Position numbers and translations under genes: made by a program. Below, piece after piece: positions 201 through 37,087 of a stretch of DNA of 37,229 nucleotides; position 1 is the first letter of the stretch; each line of letters begins with the position of its first letter. Below the pieces are notes generated by a model. The model had not been told where the DNA came from. It did not search any database and saw only the letters and a program-made list of their open reading frames with translations. The stretch comes from an uncultured Sphingomonadales bacterium (GTDB taxonomy: Bacteria > Pseudomonadota > Alphaproteobacteria > Sphingomonadales > Sphingomonadaceae): positions 1-37,229 of the forward strand of contig CALMZE010000050.1 of NCBI GenBank assembly GCA_937870585.1, read 5' to 3'.

Positions 201-290
201 CCGTTCGTCCTGAGCTTGTCGAAGGACTGCCTTTTCTTGAAACGTTAGTATCAGGAAAGAACAGTCCTTCGACAAGCTCAGGACGAACGG
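201..290. repeat. Dispersed inverted repeat, copy 1
   Basis: The arms CCGTTCGTCCTGAGCTTGTC (from 201) and its reverse complement (ending near 290) are separated by an AT-richer centre. The element fills the space between two convergent genes. Similar arms recur at 10548-10661, 11968-12053 and 36997-37087, so this is a dispersed family of REP/MITE-like palindromes. It could fold into a long hairpin and act as a bidirectional terminator. Confidence 0.85.
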
Positions 291-7599: not shown

Positions 7600-8910
7600 T
7601 CAGCTTGACGCTTCCAGCCGGGCAATCGCCCGGTCCTGACCGATCAAAGGCAATAGCGCCTTCATGTCCGGGCCATGATCCAGGCCGGTCAAGGCGCGGC
7701 GAAGCGGCAGGAACAAGCTCTTACCCTTGCGGCCCGTTGACGCTTTCAAGGCATCGGTCAGGGCGGACCAGACATCGGCAGACCATGTGAGAGAGCGGGC
7801 CAATTGCGCAGCTTCGCTCAGGAAAGGCCGGTCTTCAGGCTCAATGCTCGCCGAGACCTCACCAGTTACAATGGCCAACCAGTCGGCGGCGTCGCTCAAG
7901 CGCTCCAGATTGGGGCGGATCGCCTCCCACGCCGCTTCGGTCATCCCTTCGGGCAAGCGATTCGCCACCGCCTCATAGGGCGTCTGGTGGAGGATTCGCG
8001 CGTTGAGTTGGGCCAGTTCGCCTTCGTCGAACCGGGCTGGTGCGCGGCCAAAGCGGGCGAAATCGATGCTTGCTATCAGGGGCTGCGGCGTGGTGAAGGG
8101 TTCCACCGGATCGCTCGTCCCCAGCCGCGCCAGCAGCGCGATGACAGCCATCGGCTCAATGCCCTGTTCGCGGAACGCATCCATGCCGAGCGAGCCGAGC
8201 CGCTTGGAGAGCTTGCCCTCGCTTCCGGTCAGCAGCGCTTCATGCGCAAAACGCGGCGGCGCTGCGCCCATGGCGGTGAACATCTGGATCTGCGTCGCGG
8301 TGTTGGTGACATGATCCTCGCCACGCAGCACGTCCGTAACGCCCATATCCACATCGTCGATGGCGGAGGGGAGCATATAGAGCCAGCTGCCATCGGCGCG
8401 GCGGATAACGGGGTCAGAAAGAAGCTTGGGATCAAATTTCTGGTGCCCGCGCACCCTGTCGTCCCATTCGATCGGCGCATCATGATCCAGCTTGAAGCGC
8501 CAGTGCGGCGTGCGGCCTTCGGGCACCGGCGCATCGGCGGCCTTGCGTTCATAGACGGGCGGCAGACCGCGACCCAGCAGCACCTTGCGGCGCAGGTCCA
8601 GTTCTTCGGGCGTTTCATAACAGGCATAGACGCGGCCCGCCGCCTTCAGCGCCTCGAACTGTGCCTCATAGAGCGCGAAGCGGGCAGACTGGCGCGCCTC
8701 ACCATCGGGCGCAATGCCCAGCCAGGCGAGATCGGCGCGGATGCCGTCGACATAGTCCTCCTTGGACCGTTCAAGATCGGTATCGTCGATCCGCAGCAGA
8801 AAGCGCCCGCCATGGCGTTTGGCCCAAAGCCAGTTGTGGAGCGCGGTGCGGACATTGCCGACATGGAGGTGGCCGGTGGGAGACGGCGCGAAACGAGTGG
8901 TGATGGTCAT
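7600..8910 (-). CDS. gltX: Glutamyl-tRNA synthetase
   Basis: This 436-residue class I aminoacyl-tRNA synthetase has the start MTITTRFAPSPTGHLHVGNV, carrying the HIGH-type motif, and KLSKR at residues 233-237 as the KMSKS-type motif. It charges tRNA with glutamate in the cytoplasm. It is shorter than the roughly 470-residue type and resembles the compact GltX found as one of two copies in many alphaproteobacteria. A second copy elsewhere, and a tRNA(Gln) specificity, are therefore possible. It follows holA by about 40 bases on the same strand and could be co-transcribed with it. Confidence 0.95.
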   Translation of the reverse strand: MTITTRFAPSPTGHLHVGNVRTALHNWLWAKRHGGRFLLRIDDTDLERSKEDYVDGIRADLAWLGIAPDGEARQSARFALYEAQFEALKAAGRVYACYETPEELDLRRKVLLGRGLPPVYERKAADAPVPEGRTPHWRFKLDHDAPIEWDDRVRGHQKFDPKLLSDPVIRRADGSWLYMLPSAIDDVDMGVTDVLRGEDHVTNTATQIQMFTAMGAAPPRFAHEALLTGSEGKLSKRLGSLGMDAFREQGIEPMAVIALLARLGTSDPVEPFTTPQPLIASIDFARFGRAPARFDEGELAQLNARILHQTPYEAVANRLPEGMTEAAWEAIRPNLERLSDAADWLAIVTGEVSASIEPEDRPFLSEAAQLARSLTWSADVWSALTDALKASTGRKGKSLFLPLRRALTGLDHGPDMKALLPLIGQDRAIARLEASS

Positions 8911-8949: not shown

Positions 8950-9966
8950 CTAACGCCGCCGCTGCGCCGCGCGTGAAGCAGAGAGGAACAGCGAATCCGC
9001 CAGCACATCGCCTGCTGTGGACGGGGCCTTGATGCCGCGTTCGGCCTCCAGCAGACGCGTGTTGAGCGTGGCGACGCCGTCAGCTGTCCAGCGCTGCAAC
9101 TGTGGCAGCGCGCCATCCTTTTCCCACATCGGGAGCGAGGATGTGACGGCATCTGCAGAACGCCCGCCTGCCATCTGGCCATGCAGCCGAGCGAGCAATT
9201 GCATCCGCCTGTGGACGGCGCGGAGTAGCGAAATGCTGTTTTCCCCTTCCGCCTTCAGTCGCGCCAGCTCCTGCGCGACCTGTCCCGGCTGACCGCCTAG
9301 CACCGCGCGGATGAAATGCTTCTGATCCACCTCTCCCGACACGGCGGACACAGCATCGAGCGCCGTCGAATCAACCTCGGCCGGGCGTTCGGGCGCGGCA
9401 TCGAGGTAAAGCGCCAGCTTTTCCAGTTCGCGTGCCATCAATGCCCGGTCTCCGCCCGCCATGCGGACGATGCGGCCTGTACAGTCTCCGGTCAGCCGCA
9501 GCCCCTGTTCCTGCGCCAAGGCCGCCGCGATCTGTTCCAGTTCGCGCTGGTTGGGCAGATAGGAGGCACAGGCCATGGCCGCCGGATGCGCCAGCATCAA
9601 TTTGACAATGGCTGCTGTATTTTTGAGCCCGCCCGCAATGATCGCCACCGGATTGCCCGCCACCGGCGCGTCGAGCAGCGCTTGAACGGCGGCCACCGGG
9701 TCCTCGCGGCCTTCCCAGCGGATCACGATGAAGCGCTTCTCGCCAAACAGACCCATCGAGGCGGCTTCATCGGCGAGGCGCGCGGGATCGCCCTTGAGCG
9801 TGGCGAGATCGAGATCGATGCGTTCGGCCTCTGCCCCCATGGCGCGCACCAGCCGGGCCAGCAGTGCGTGTGAGCCCGCTTCATCCGGGCCATAGAGCAG
9901 GAAGGCGCGGGTGCCTTGGCCGCCCGCATCGAGCGCTTTAGCGACTTGCGCCGCATTTGCTTTCAC
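8950..9966 (-). CDS. holA: DNA polymerase III subunit delta
   Basis: This 338-residue clamp-loader subunit opens the beta sliding clamp. Family features include RAFLLYGPDEAGSHALLARLV near the N-terminus, the segment LFGEKRFIVIRW, and the C-terminal collar domain with LLRAVHRRMQLLARLHGQM. The start is GTG, in a GTGA overlap with the stop of lptE, so translation is probably coupled. The lptE-holA order after leuS is conserved in alphaproteobacteria, but here another gene sits between leuS and lptE. Confidence 0.93.
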   Translation of the reverse strand: MKANAAQVAKALDAGGQGTRAFLLYGPDEAGSHALLARLVRAMGAEAERIDLDLATLKGDPARLADEAASMGLFGEKRFIVIRWEGREDPVAAVQALLDAPVAGNPVAIIAGGLKNTAAIVKLMLAHPAAMACASYLPNQRELEQIAAALAQEQGLRLTGDCTGRIVRMAGGDRALMARELEKLALYLDAAPERPAEVDSTALDAVSAVSGEVDQKHFIRAVLGGQPGQVAQELARLKAEGENSISLLRAVHRRMQLLARLHGQMAGGRSADAVTSSLPMWEKDGALPQLQRWTADGVATLNTRLLEAERGIKAPSTAGDVLADSLFLSASRAAQRRR

Positions 9967-10460
9967 TGCGCGTTGGCCTGCCGCCCCGCAAACAGCGCAA
10001 CGCGCGCGGTGATCTGGTCCGCCAGAATCTGCGTCAGCCGTTCAAGTGCGCTGTCTTCAGCGGCGAGCACAGCATATTCGGAAGAGACCACGTCAATCCC
10101 CGCGTCAGACCCTGCGGTCGCATCGAGCAGGGTCGTGCCCTGTGCGGCATCGACCAGCCGGTAGCGTGCGCGCAACGCTCGGCGTTCGCGTGTGACGGCA
10201 TCATCGCGGCGCACGCCAAAACCGGTGATCTGATCATCCAGTTCGATTTCCAGCCGATAGGCCGCGACTTCACCTTGCCTGTTGCCAATCCTGTCATTGA
10301 GCGCATTGCGCAACAGCCAGCCCGCTTTGCCATCAATCGGAGCCACATCCACCGAACGCAACGCTTGGGCGGCCGCCCCCTGTGACCCATCGGCATAAAG
10401 CGGACGCAGCGCACAGCCCGACAGGCTGGCGAGGAGGATCAGGGGCAGAGCGCGTTTCAT
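9963..10460 (-). CDS. lptE: LPS assembly lipoprotein LptE
   Basis: This protein of about 165 residues has a lipoprotein signal, MKRALPLILLASLSGC, with the lipidated cysteine at residue 16. CALRPLYADG follows it, which is the usual LptE opening. LptE is the outer-membrane plug and chaperone of LptD, delivering lipopolysaccharide to the cell surface. The ATG at 10460 is preferred because it places the lipobox correctly; an earlier in-frame start at 10478 adds six residues. It overlaps holA by four bases. Confidence 0.9.
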   Translation of the reverse strand: MKRALPLILLASLSGCALRPLYADGSQGAAAQALRSVDVAPIDGKAGWLLRNALNDRIGNRQGEVAAYRLEIELDDQITGFGVRRDDAVTRERRALRARYRLVDAAQGTTLLDATAGSDAGIDVVSSEYAVLAAEDSALERLTQILADQITARVALFAGRQANAQ

Positions 10461-10547
10461 GCGCGCGGTATCGGGCAAGAGCGGGATCGGCTCAAGCCCG
10501 AAATGTGGCGCACGTTGTTCCGATCCTCAATAAGGTCTGCAAAAACA

Positions 10548-10661
10548 CCGTTCGCCCTGAGCTTGTCGAAGCCTGTCCTGAGCCTCGCCGAAGGGGGATG
10601 TCCTTCATTATTCGAACCAGTCCAAGAAGGGGCAATGCTTCGACAAGCTCAGCTCGAACGG
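10548..10661. repeat. Dispersed inverted repeat, copy 2 (downstream of the cyclodipeptide synthase-like gene)
   Basis: The arms CCGTTCGCCCTGAGCTTGTCG and CGACAAGCTCAGCTCGAACGG face each other across about 70 bases. The left arm carries an extra partial copy (CCTGAGCCTCGCCGAAGG). The element sits between the cyclodipeptide synthase-like gene and lptE. It belongs to the same family as 201-290, 11968-12053 and 36997-37087. Confidence 0.85.
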
Positions 10662-10688
10662 TACGGGTTGACCCCATTTGATCATATG

Positions 10689-11939
10689 TCACGGCATGAA
10701 TTGCAGCTCTTTCAACTGCCGACGCGCGCGCAAGGAGAGCACGCGGCCAATGTCCAGCAGTATGTCGCACGCAATGCCGGGATGCTTGTCTCGCAACGCA
10801 CCAAAATCGCGCCAGCCGAGCGTGCGGACATTGCAATCGGTGAGCGCGGTCACGGTAGCGGAACGGGGTTGTGCGTCGAGAAACGCCTGCTCGCCAAACA
10901 CAGAACCCGCTTCAATCACCGCAATCTGCTGATGCGTGCCATCGGCGCGCTTCACCGTTACTTCGGCGCGGCCATCAATCAGGATGAAGAGGTGGCGGCC
11001 ATCGCGCTCTTCGCCGAGCACCTCCTCGCGCGGGCCAAAGCGTTTGATCTTTGTGAATTTGAACAGCGCGTTCCAGTCTTGGTCGCTGGAATCGGCGAGA
11101 AATCCTGCATCGGGATTGGCGACCGTCTCCACGCCTGCCGCCGTGCGCAGCACCTTGACCGCACCGTCTGAAAAATAGAGCCCCCGTTTGCGGAGGTCGA
11201 GCGAGAGGAAGGCCAGACGGGCCAGCGCGTCCGGGGCTCCTGCAAATTTGCCTTCACACAAATCGGCAATCGAATCGATCGAACCGGGATAGACGAGCAC
11301 CGGCCATCCCATCTCTTCCAGACAACAGAACAGCGCCGATTCTTCGATCAGATAATCCGCCGCAATCTGCGCCGCCTGATCTGCACTCACTGCGAAGGGA
11401 TTGGCATCCAACTTGTCGCCGCGCCCCAGATACAAATCGGCAAAATCGCTGATCGAGCGCGCAAAGGCCGCATCATCGCGCGCAAGGGCTCGCAACTGAT
11501 TATGATGCCCGGCAAAGCTCTCCGCCGTTTCCACCTCTGAAAAGCGGATGAACTCGAACTGGCACTTGCCGCCAAACTGCGCGAGCACGGGCGCATAAAG
11601 GCGGCAGAAATCCGCCCCGGCCTCCATCGCCTTGGCGCGGGCGGCGTCTTCATCCAGCCCTTCGAGCAGTTGCAGCGTCAGCCGGTAGACGCTGTCGCCC
11701 ACCACCACGGCGCAGCGTTCAAACCGCTCCGAAATCCACTCAATCGAGGCTTCGAAGCGCGCGCCTTCAAAATTCGCATTGCCCAGCGAGACGCCAAGCA
11801 TGGATTTCTCGCCGCCAAATTCAAAATAGCCCTTCGCCTTGGGTGCAATGCCTTCAAAACCCGCTTTGTAGCGGTGCGTGCCAAAGCTGATGGTTTCCAG
11901 TCCCAGATTGGACGCACGGATGGAATTGGGATCGCTCAA
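10689..11939 (-). CDS. Cyclodipeptide synthase-like protein fused to a cyclic-nucleotide-binding domain
   Basis: This 416-residue protein has two parts. Residues about 20-255 align from end to end, by eye, with tRNA-dependent cyclodipeptide synthases such as AlbC. Matching elements are GVSLGNANF (residues 49-57; AlbC GISAGNSYF), a WxxxRFER strand-helix region (68-75), SEV (134-136), and DYLIEESALF (195-204; AlbC NYVLAEAPLF). The AlbC catalytic residues S37, Y178, E182 and Y202 correspond to S51, Y196, E200 and Y217. Residues about 292-405 form a CAP_ED domain whose phosphate-binding cassette FGEQAFLDAQPRSATV keeps E350 and R359. No helix-turn-helix follows, so it is not a Crp-type transcription factor. 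I infer an enzyme that joins two aminoacyl groups from charged tRNAs under cAMP or cGMP control. The start is TTG with AGGAG six bases upstream. The gene lies between leuS and lptE and is bracketed by repeats. Known cyclodipeptide-tailoring enzymes are absent nearby. Activity is unproven. Confidence 0.82.
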   Translation of the reverse strand: MSDPNSIRASNLGLETISFGTHRYKAGFEGIAPKAKGYFEFGGEKSMLGVSLGNANFEGARFEASIEWISERFERCAVVVGDSVYRLTLQLLEGLDEDAARAKAMEAGADFCRLYAPVLAQFGGKCQFEFIRFSEVETAESFAGHHNQLRALARDDAAFARSISDFADLYLGRGDKLDANPFAVSADQAAQIAADYLIEESALFCCLEEMGWPVLVYPGSIDSIADLCEGKFAGAPDALARLAFLSLDLRKRGLYFSDGAVKVLRTAAGVETVANPDAGFLADSSDQDWNALFKFTKIKRFGPREEVLGEERDGRHLFILIDGRAEVTVKRADGTHQQIAVIEAGSVFGEQAFLDAQPRSATVTALTDCNVRTLGWRDFGALRDKHPGIACDILLDIGRVLSLRARRQLKELQFMP

Positions 11940-11967: not shown

Positions 11968-12053
11968 CCGTTCGCCCTGAGCTTGTCGAAGGGCTGCCTT
12001 TACCTTTCGACCCAAGGCAAAGGGCAGGGCTTCGACAGACTCAGCCCGAACGG
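11968..12053. repeat. Dispersed inverted repeat, copy 3 (upstream of the cyclodipeptide synthase-like gene)
   Basis: CCGTTCGCCCTGAGCTTGTCG faces CGACAGACTCAGCCCGAACGG, with a short pyrimidine-rich centre. It occupies most of the gap between leuS and the cyclodipeptide synthase-like gene. With the copy at 10548-10661 it brackets that gene. Confidence 0.85.
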
Positions 12054-12075: not shown

Positions 12076-14586
12076 TTACGCTACAATATTCACCAAGCGA
12101 CCCGGAACCACGATGATTTTCTTGGGCACGGCTCCATCGAGCGTGCGGATGATCTTGTCTGATGCCAGCGCCAGCGCTTCCAGCGCGACTTTGTCCGCAT
12201 CCTTGGGCACGGTCAGCGTATCGCGCAGCTTGCCATTGACCTGCACGGCGATGGTGACTTCATCATCCACCAGCAGCGCGGGATCATGATCGGGCCAGCT
12301 TTGCGTGGCGACTAGACCTTCGCCGCCCAGCGCCACCCAGCCTTCTTCCGCGAGATGCGGCAGCATGGGGGAAATGAGTCGCGGCAGGGTGCGGATTGCG
12401 GCGGTGCGTGACGCGGACGGTGCGGCCTTTTCGATGGCGTTCACCAGTTCGTGAACCTTGGCGACGGCCTTGTTGAAGGTCAGCGCCTCAATGTCTGTGG
12501 CAATGCCCGCAATGCTGCGGTGGAGGAGCTTGTCCAGCGCCACATCCGCGCCTTCACTGGCTGAAGCATCGCCAAACAGCCGCCAGATGCGGTTGACGAA
12601 GCGCCATGTGCCCTCAATCCCGCTTTCGGACCATTCCAGATCGCGTTCGGGCGGGGAATCGGAGAGCATGAACCAGCGTACCGCGTCCGCGCCGTACTGA
12701 TCAATAATGCCATCGGGATCGATGACATTCTTCTTCGATTTGGACATTTTCTCGATGCGGCCACGAATCGCGCGCGCGCCTTCAAGCGTGATGACGTTCT
12801 TGCCTTCGATCTTGACCTCTTCAGGGCTCAGCCATTTGCCATCGGTCGAGCGATAAGTCTCATGCGTCACCATGCCCTGCGTGAACAGTGCGGCGAACGG
12901 CTCCGCAAAGTCGATCTGCCCCACCTTTTGCAGCGCGCGGGTCCAGAAGCGGGCATAGAGCAGGTGCAGGATCGCATGTTCGATCCCGCCAATATATTGC
13001 CCCACCGGCAGCCACGCTTTCACCTCGTCCGCATCGAACGGCTTGTCATCGGGCTGGCTGGCAAAGCGGATGAAGTACCAGCTCGAATCAGCAAAGGTAT
13101 CGAGCGTGTCGGTCTCGCGCCGCGCGGGTTCCTTGCAGTTCGGGCAGGGGACATTCTTCCACGTCGGGTGTCGGTCGAGCGGATTGCCCGGTACATCAAA
13201 GCTGACATCTTCGGGCAGCTTCACCGGCAATTGCGAACGTGGCACGGGCAGGACACCGCAAAACTCGCAATGGATGATCGGGATCGGTGTGCCCCAGTAA
13301 CGCTGGCGAGAGACGCCCCAATCGCGCAGGCGATATTGCGTCTGGCCTTCGCCCCAGCCCTCATGTTCAGCCTTGGCGATAACGGCGGCCTTGGCAGCGT
13401 CCACCTCCATGCCGTCCATCCAGCCCGAATTCACGAGGCGGCCCGGCCCGGTATAGGCGACATCGCCTTCAAAGTCGGAGTCGGTCAGATCACCGTCGGC
13501 CACCACGCGGCGGACGGGCAGATCATATTTGCGGGCGAAATCCAGATCGCGCTGGTCATGCGCGGGGCAGCCGAACACCGCCCCCGTCCCATACTCCATC
13601 AGCACGAAATTGGCGACCCAGACGGGCAGATGCCAACTGGGATCGAGGGGATGTTCCACCGAAAGCCCGGTGTTGAAGCCGATCTTTTCCGCCGTCTCGA
13701 TCTCGGCAGCGGTCGTGCCGCCCTTCTTGCACAGTTCAATGAAGCGTTGCAGCTCCGGTGCATTGGTGGCCAGTTCGCGGGCGAGCGGATGGTCTGCGGC
13801 AATCGCCACAAAGCTTGCGCCAAACAGCGTGTCGGGCCGCGTGGTGAACACGTCGATGGCATCGCCCGTGCCTGCCAGATTGAAGGCGAAGTTCAGCCCC
13901 TTGGATTTGCCGATCCAGTTTTCCTGCATCAGCCGCACCTTGTCTGGCCACTGATCAAGCGTATCGAGGCCGGCAAGCAGCTCTTCGGCGAAATCGGTGA
14001 TCTTCAGGAACCATTGGTTGAGCTTCTTGCGCTCCACCGGCGCGCCGGAGCGCCAACCCTTGCCATCAATCACCTGCTCATTGGCGAGCACGGTCATATC
14101 GACCGGATCCCAATTGACCTCGCTCTCCTTGCGATAAACGAGGCCATGCTTGTAGAAGTCGAGGAACAGCGCCTGTTCGTGGCCGTAATATTCGGGTTCA
14201 CAGGTGGAAAGCTCGCGGCTCCAGTCGATGGCGAGGCCGAGACGCTTCAGCTGCTTCTTCATCGCTTCGATATTGGCGCGCGTCCAGTCGCCGGGGTGAA
14301 CCTTGCGCTCCATCGCGGCATTTTCTGCCGGCATCCCGAAGCTGTCCCACCCCATCGGATGCAGCACGCCGTGCCCCGTCATCGCCTTGAAGCGCGCCAG
14401 CACGTCGCCCATCGTATAATTGCGGACATGGCCCATATGGATGCGCCCGCTGGGATAGGGAAACATCTCCAGCACATAGGTTTTGGGGCGCGGATCGCTG
14501 GCGGGCGGAGCCTTGAAGGCCTGTGCTTCATCCCAGGCGGTCTGCCATTTGGGGTCTGCTGCAAAGGGGTTGAAGCGGGTGCTCAT
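12076..14586 (-). CDS. leuS: Leucyl-tRNA synthetase
   Basis: This 836-residue class I synthetase carries HMGH at residues 50-53 and KMSKS at 613-617. The connective editing domain between them contains the threonine-rich [13 protein letters not shown]. Other family landmarks are GYIGG-type [21 protein letters not shown] and the C-terminal [10 protein letters not shown] anticodon-binding segment. It charges tRNA(Leu) in the cytoplasm and hydrolyses mischarged products. It follows the DUF3576 lipoprotein gene on the same strand, with a repeat element in the gap, and precedes the cyclodipeptide synthase-like gene. The length is normal and no key motif is missing. Confidence 0.97.
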
Positions 14587-36996: not shown

Positions 36997-37087
36997 CCGT
37001 TCGTGCTGAGCTTGTCGAAGCACAGTCTTTCTCTGGTCATCAAGGCCTCAAGATAAGGCAGTCCTTCGACAAGCTCAGGACGAGCGG
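36997..37087. repeat. Dispersed inverted repeat, copy 4
   Basis: CCGTTCGTGCTGAGCTTGTCG and CGACAAGCTCAGGACGAGCGG face each other across about 50 bases, between the convergent TetR and thiolase genes. It is the same family as 201-290, 10548-10661 and 11968-12053. Its position between two stop codons again suggests a terminator-like role. Confidence 0.85.

Follow-up and report, generated by a model that had tools for sequence, protein, structure and literature searches.

The chemistry of cyclodipeptide synthases (CDPSs) passes through an aminoacyl-enzyme and a dipeptidyl-enzyme, both formed on a serine, according to the accessible text of two papers (PMC13062777, PMC12945691). In AlbC numbering the catalytic set comprises S37, Y178, E182 and Y202, and the subfamilies are told apart by two further positions, NYH members carrying N40 and H203 and XYP members any residue and P203 (available part of PMC13062777). 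Fusions of CDPSs to methyltransferase, P450 and ABC-transporter partners appear in the accessible portion of one genome survey (PMC5816076), and CDPS-fused methyltransferases in that of a second (PMC5767969); the available text of a cyclodipeptide review (PMC11610984) contains neither 'fused' nor 'allosteric'. Among the open-access matches listed, no CDPS under direct allosteric control was described. Nothing on a CDPS linked with a cyclic nucleotide-binding (CNB) domain was found in open-access full text, which lacks most subscription papers, and the combination of CDPS with 'cyclic nucleotide' returned only a diatom pheromone paper from that source.

Direct control of an enzyme by a fused CNB domain is documented for the mycobacterial acetyltransferases MtKat and MsKat, which cAMP activates through that domain (accessible part of PMC5861322). 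The CNB-like domains of family 2B encapsulins bind no cyclic nucleotide, which is explained by divergent site residues (available text of PMC12407261). Here we describe a gene that encodes a CDPS domain and a CNB domain in one chain. It lies in the window, the whole stretch of 37,229 nucleotides that was analyzed, from an uncultured Sphingomonadales bacterium.

Domain architecture of the fusion protein

The gene and its parts were located as follows.

10689 to 11939, minus strand: whole gene, CDPS-linker-CNB fusion of 416 aa with a TTG start (open reading frame)
11187 to 11882, minus strand: CDPS domain, about residues 20-251, with S51, Y196, E200, Y217 and the XYP-type P218 (Pfam, NCBIfam and PDB-sequence matches, alignments)
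11067 to 11186, minus strand: linker of ~40 residues, about residues 252-291 (gap between the 9j61 match and the CNB match)
10692 to 11066, minus strand: cyclic nucleotide (cNMP)-binding domain, about residues 292-416, with cassette FGEQAFLDAQPRSA holding E350 and R359 (Pfam, alignments, predicted fold)

The 416-aa frame was uninterrupted from its TTG start codon, 6 nt 5' of which stood a ribosome-binding-like GAGGAG. A hmmscan search against Pfam placed PF16715 (CDPS) at residues 43-204 (45.4 bits, E 1e-11, cut-off 27) and PF00027 (cNMP_binding) at residues 299-385 (61 bits, E 1.1e-16, cut-off 27.5), and the NCBIfam CDPS subfamily model TIGR04539 matched residues 43-237 (92.3 bits, cut-off 45). 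Both domains thus exceeded their Pfam cut-offs, the agreement is far better than chance would give, and the curated profiles, together with the aligned key residues, support the first-pass annotation in naming a CDPS-like enzyme joined to a cNMP sensor. The sole further Pfam match at E values up to 10 was Pentapeptide_3, below its own cut-off. The same scan reported no helix-turn-helix (HTH) or other DNA-binding domain in the fusion protein, and the chain stops at residue 416, three residues past the last predicted CNB helix, which agrees with the earlier statement that a DNA-binding domain is lacking.

The junction was found between two complete domains. An assembly chimera is disfavoured by the continuous frame, the similar GC content of the two gene parts (0.59 and 0.61) and the position of the gene inside a 37 kb contig. 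As anatomy, the union of CDPS and CNB in one chain is strongly supported, and within the genomes searched this arrangement of domains is new for a known family.

The CDPS domain is of the XYP type

The best solved match among PDB sequences was 9j61, entitled 'cyclodipeptide synthase' (E 2.2e-41, residues 20-251), with 82 identities over 224 aligned residues (36.6%) in a local alignment; 5ocd, 5mlp and AlbC (3oqv) followed. No paper naming the code 9j61 was present among the open-access matches listed. A solved CDPS at this level of identity suggests the Rossmann-like CDPS fold for the N-terminal domain. In the full-length AlphaFold2 model the CDPS half stayed mostly below pLDDT 50, the input alignment consisting almost only of CNB sequences, and when residues 1-263 were predicted alone without an alignment, 246 of the 263 residues were below 50. 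This low confidence reflects a lack of input, and the models, which follow the structural check proposed with the first reading, speak neither for nor against the CDPS fold.

Alignment placed S51, Y196, E200 and Y217 at the CDPS catalytic positions (S37, Y178, E182 and Y202 of AlbC), just as the first reading of the sequence had them. Conservation was assessed over 32 rows: besides the query and 9j61 these were 30 frames retrieved by the searches, the weak frames L069 and L072 having been left out beforehand. Serine occupied the S51 column in all 32 rows and glutamate the E200 column in all 31 rows that have a letter there; the Y196 column held tyrosine in 26 of 31 rows and phenylalanine in five, the Y217 column tyrosine in 30 of 31 and phenylalanine in one, and the P218 column proline in 25 of 31. 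Judged from these sequence comparisons, the case for a CDPS enzyme is strong.

The subfamily differs from the one first proposed. P218 directly follows Y217 and corresponds to AlbC position 203, which is histidine in NYH members; by the published rule the query is therefore of the XYP type and not NYH like AlbC. N54 aligns with N40 of AlbC, and the rule permits any residue at that position in XYP enzymes. The 'AlbC-type' label of the first-pass annotation accordingly holds for the family but not for the subfamily. 9j61 is likewise XYP by its own proline in the alignment, and 5ocd, 5mlp and 5mlq are named XYP in the accessible text of PMC12945691. The query shares with XYP CDPSs the domain, the motif order, the catalytic Ser/Tyr/Glu/Tyr and the proline after the last tyrosine; it differs from them in the CNB domain added behind the CDPS domain.

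In a phylogenetic tree of the 32 rows the query grouped with 9j61, L057 and L040, a piece from Cupriavidus, at a support of 99/98. The tree does not resolve the branching within this group, and the program flagged long branches elsewhere, the short L040 and the letter make-up of the query. L057 (1168-2142) is an unfused relative in this clade with about 90 residues before its CDPS match, a stretch that gave no Pfam match. Another CDPS-like frame, L064 (807-2228), codes for 474 aa with a long Ser/Thr/Glu-rich tail, also free of Pfam matches. Pocket rules (P1 and P2) for predicting CDPS products have been published and are less reliable for XYP enzymes (available part of PMC5816076). The adjoining leuS was not used as a clue to leucine in the product, because leuS occupies the same place in relatives that lack the gene.

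The CNB domain retains the phosphate-binding cassette

E350 and R359 aligned with E72 and R82 of E. coli CRP, and S360 with S83. In CRP, E72 and R82 (mature numbering) hold the ribose and the phosphate, and T127 is a base contact. T127 lacked a counterpart in the query, Q408 falling there in an alignment that is loose at that end. E350 and R359 were invariant in all 18 rows of a CNB alignment (the query and 17 CNBs from related loci), and the FGEQAFLD block was retained in the query and in the 17 others. The alignments to CRP and among the 18 CNBs confirm the cassette with intact E350 and R359 that had been noted at first sight. AlphaFold2 predicted the domain confidently (block pLDDT 73-96 over residues 281-410), and the best Foldseek matches of the model were mostly CRP-type CNBs, several of them with bound cAMP. 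The query has the CNB fold and the phosphate cassette in common with CRP-type cAMP receptors and differs from them in that no DNA-binding domain was reported.

These residues bear on whether the domain senses a cyclic nucleotide at all. The protein might instead be an active CDPS whose CNB-like domain serves dimerisation or binds another small molecule, and the missing match to the base-contacting threonine of CRP fits this reading. Family 2B encapsulins offer a precedent for CNB folds without cyclic-nucleotide binding (accessible part of PMC12407261), and the query CNB matches the encapsulin model NF041163, at 32.3 bits and thus far below the cut-off of 400. The encapsulin sites are divergent, as the same text states, whereas the query, like the 17 aligned sequences, keeps E350, R359 and FGEQAFLD, and we consider a non-sensing domain rather unlikely.

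Related CNBs occurred in several settings. Some stood alone (e.g. L012 and L014). L015, from a Bacillota metagenome-assembled genome (MAG), is an MFS transporter that ends in a CNB of this type, and L018, L019 and L020, also from Bacillota MAGs, are MFS transporters with a C-terminal CNB by their likeness to L015. In the Verrucomicrobiota MAG loci L022-L027, frames of 465-629 aa carried a C-terminal CNB after a GNAT-like-looking region, which gave no Pfam match in the two proteins scanned (L022 and L023). As they stand alone, on MFS transporters or behind a GNAT-like-looking region, CNBs of this type travel between partners. How far the L022 match extends had suggested that the linker might share an origin with the Verrucomicrobiota proteins. 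Comparison with five proteins led us to reject this: the best E was 5.4 for residues 240-295 and 0.39 for residues 205-285. With residues 185-290 a match to L022 did appear (E 1.2e-4), but it was confined to residues 189-219 of the CDPS domain and was not seen in the other four proteins.

Distribution of CDPS and CNB fusions

To our searches of genus, family, class and phylum samples, all within one phylum, the fusion was confined to the window: no second CDPS-CNB protein was found in these genomes. The full protein was matched in seven of 13 genus genomes, its own included. Outside its own gene these matches fell in the CNB domain, L009 excepted, where a nominal match to residues 182-410 ran across two stops and on recheck only residues 303-410 matched a frame. 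The CDPS part gave no match better than E 0.36 in L002-L010 and was absent from the other 12 genus genomes. The window's own genome was the only one to match it in the family sample (one of 397, absent from the 396 others) and in the phylum sample (one of 398).

The NCBIfam profile TIGR04539 was matched in ten of 385 genomes of the window's class (six above cut-off, the window's own included), in two of 398 genomes of the phylum sample (the window's own, which alone exceeded the cut-off, and L041) and in 18 of 355 genomes of the class of G1084 (five above cut-off), L041 being among the 18. L041 looks by eye like a LysR-type frame, is missed by a purpose-built CDPS profile and seems to be a false match. 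A wider scan of genome contigs yielded 17 loci; apart from L022 (residues 189-415), each was matched only in the CNB. Search patterns drawn from both domains led the scan to meet the CNB rather than the CDPS, so fused relatives elsewhere may have been missed. No relatives of the fusion were found in the phages or the viral contigs searched, and the plasmid search returned one record, a short CDPS piece on a Cupriavidus plasmid. This piece (L040:3971-4366, Cupriavidus necator plasmid NZ_CP068436.1) is a 132-aa frame whose start matches the N-terminal part of 9j61-like CDPSs; the remainder of the domain is absent, and the frame looks truncated.

Five of the 32 CDPS-like frames were longer than 300 aa (L029, L057, L064, L070 and L068), and Pfam reported no CNB in any of them. 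The 27 others, at less than 300 aa, could not accommodate both domains, though contig ends or frameshifts may have shortened some of them. In one of the long frames, L029:1441-3639, from a genome of ~1 Mb in the window's class, a CDPS domain (195.9 bits) was followed in one frame by PAS and a histidine-kinase-type ATPase. L029 resembles the query in joining a CDPS to a signalling module in one chain; it differs in having PAS and the kinase-type ATPase where the query has the CNB, and its CDPS domain belongs to another clade (support 100/100). No CDPS-histidine kinase fusion was seen among the open-access matches listed, judging by titles and the starts of abstracts.

Genomic context of the insertion

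The gene is flanked by the following features.

12076 to 14586, minus strand: leuS, flanking the insertion upstream; identified as leucyl-tRNA synthetase by eye
11968 to 12053, no strand: REPIN-like inverted repeat on the leuS side of the gene, 28 nt away from its start codon
10548 to 10662, no strand: REPIN-like inverted repeat on the lptE side of the gene, 26 nt beyond its end
9963 to 10478, minus strand: lptE, flanking the insertion downstream (Pfam LptE at 42.2 bits against a cut-off of 23)

The leuS-lptE gap thus measured 1.6 kb in the window and held a repeat, the gene and a second repeat. The end of leuS was present in 12 of 13 genus genomes. Eleven loci other than the window's own were available, of which L048 and L050 stop at contig borders; in all nine readable ones lptE stood directly at or over the leuS end and was followed by holA (tblastn). 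As leuS abuts lptE in nine of nine relatives, the gene represents an insertion specific to one lineage, and the repeats beside it are common in the genome. Four pairs of REPIN-like inverted repeats were identified in the window (203-288, 10548-10662, 11968-12053 and 36999-37085), comprising eight half-sites at up to two mismatches where none was expected, and with one mismatch at most, 203 copies of the half-site motif were counted genome-wide (reversed control, 0).

A simple promoter scan found no site upstream of the gene, which may therefore be transcribed together with leuS. Downstream of lptE and holA lies a gene for a glutamyl/glutaminyl-type aminoacyl-tRNA synthetase (7600-8910, minus strand; Pfam tRNA-synt_1c), so that, with leuS, synthetase genes stand on both sides of the insertion. 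None of the ten window proteins scanned with Pfam was a known CDPS tailoring partner adjoining the gene; the oxidising enzymes closest to it are encoded 8-10 kb away at 310-2684 and comprise a Rieske oxygenase and an acyl-CoA dehydrogenase.

Such a setting would suit a recently acquired or chance-fused gene without a settled function. The CDPS part is missing from the 12 other genus genomes and from the 396 others of the family sample, the gene sits between genes that abut in relatives and has repeats on both flanks, and its GC content (0.598) is the lowest of seven genes compared, if narrowly (next 0.600). Yet the frame is free of stops, third-position GC (0.69) is within the neighbours' range of 0.69-0.75, the catalytic and cassette residues are intact, a ribosome-binding-like site precedes the start and the junction joins two whole domains. 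On this evidence a gene without settled function is very unlikely.

Signal supply and a possible role in defence

The genome contained one match to Guanylate_cyc (class III cyclase), in a 674-aa CHASE2 protein, as well as a CRP-like regulator with CNB and HTH domains, which makes it plausible that this organism uses cAMP signalling. No cyclase adjoined the CDPS-CNB gene, the only Guanylate_cyc match of the genome being on contig C82 and the gene on C50. Similarly, the cyclase part of the PycC model (172-337) matched only C82; the other four PycC-model matches fell within model positions 1-151, a region to which CNB proteins align. Further frames matching this CNB part were observed on contigs C24, C133 and C182 of the same genome.

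CNB-fused effectors exist in Pycsar defence, and a Pycsar effector is by definition encoded beside a pyrimidine cyclase. In Pycsar effectors of the CNB-TIR kind the CNB is joined to an effector domain, as in the query; the query differs in having no adjacent cyclase, in having a CDPS as the partner and in profile scores below those of the genome's CRP-like protein. On three PADLOC models of Pycsar effectors the query CNB scored 29.7-33.1 bits, the CRP-like protein 43.1-56.4 bits and three stand-alone CNBs 34.1-50.1 bits. Since these other proteins score alike or higher, the PADLOC matches of the query are generic. With no adjacent cyclase either, identity as a Pycsar defence effector was rejected.

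A broader version of this idea is that the CDPS-like domain no longer frees a cyclodipeptide and instead transfers the aminoacyl group elsewhere or strips aminoacyl-tRNA; a cyclic nucleotide would then lower translation, and the protein might serve, for instance, as an effector in stress or against phages. The matches to the PADLOC effector models, the existence of CNB-fused Pycsar effectors and the want of a known tailoring partner among the ten window proteins all point this way. Set against them are the higher scores of the CRP-like protein on the same models, the location of the only Guanylate_cyc match on another contig, the lack of PADLOC matches in ten window proteins scanned and the presence of all four CDPS catalytic residues, and we regard an effector of this kind as quite improbable.

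Proposed mechanism and implications

CDPS chemistry and CNB gating are each established, and we combine them in a proposed mechanism, to which we give about an even chance: the protein would be a single-chain, ligand-gated CDPS that most likely responds to cAMP or a related nucleotide. The two domains, their catalytic and cassette residues, and a cyclase domain and CRP-like protein in the genome are observed; enzymatic activity, the product, the ligand and the gating are what we infer. The N-terminal domain would take two aminoacyl-tRNAs in turn, forming an aminoacyl-enzyme on S51 and then a dipeptidyl-enzyme, with ring closure and release of a cyclodipeptide. The C-terminal CNB would bind a 3',5'-cyclic nucleotide, most likely cAMP from the class III cyclase of the genome. 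Ligand binding would move the terminal helices of the CNB, and the ~40-residue linker would relay this motion so that the synthase is turned up or down.

By analogy with MtKat and MsKat, the gating by cAMP or cGMP proposed in the first-pass annotation can reasonably be inferred. In those acetyltransferases, as in the query, a CNB is fused to an enzyme domain; theirs is a GNAT enzyme with an N-terminal CNB, whereas the query is a CDPS with a C-terminal CNB. Against a ligand-gated CDPS speak the unmatched T127 of CRP, the encapsulin CNBs that bind no cyclic nucleotide, and the lack, in the genomes searched within one phylum, of a second fused member that would indicate selection for the architecture. 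The CDPS-CNB protein is a candidate cNMP switch.

A wider reading, to which we give somewhat less than an even chance, is that a second messenger acts directly on the use of aminoacyl-tRNA: a cyclic nucleotide would switch the CDPS and so bring about a cyclodipeptide signal or the withdrawal of charged tRNA within one protein. CDPSs are known as biosynthetic enzymes. If this reading is true, then together with L029 it would mean that CDPSs have been recruited into signalling chains more than once. If a cyclic nucleotide does gate the protein, this would suggest that some cyclodipeptides are regulated signals, and the protein would offer a ready system for small-molecule switching of tRNA-dependent peptide chemistry.
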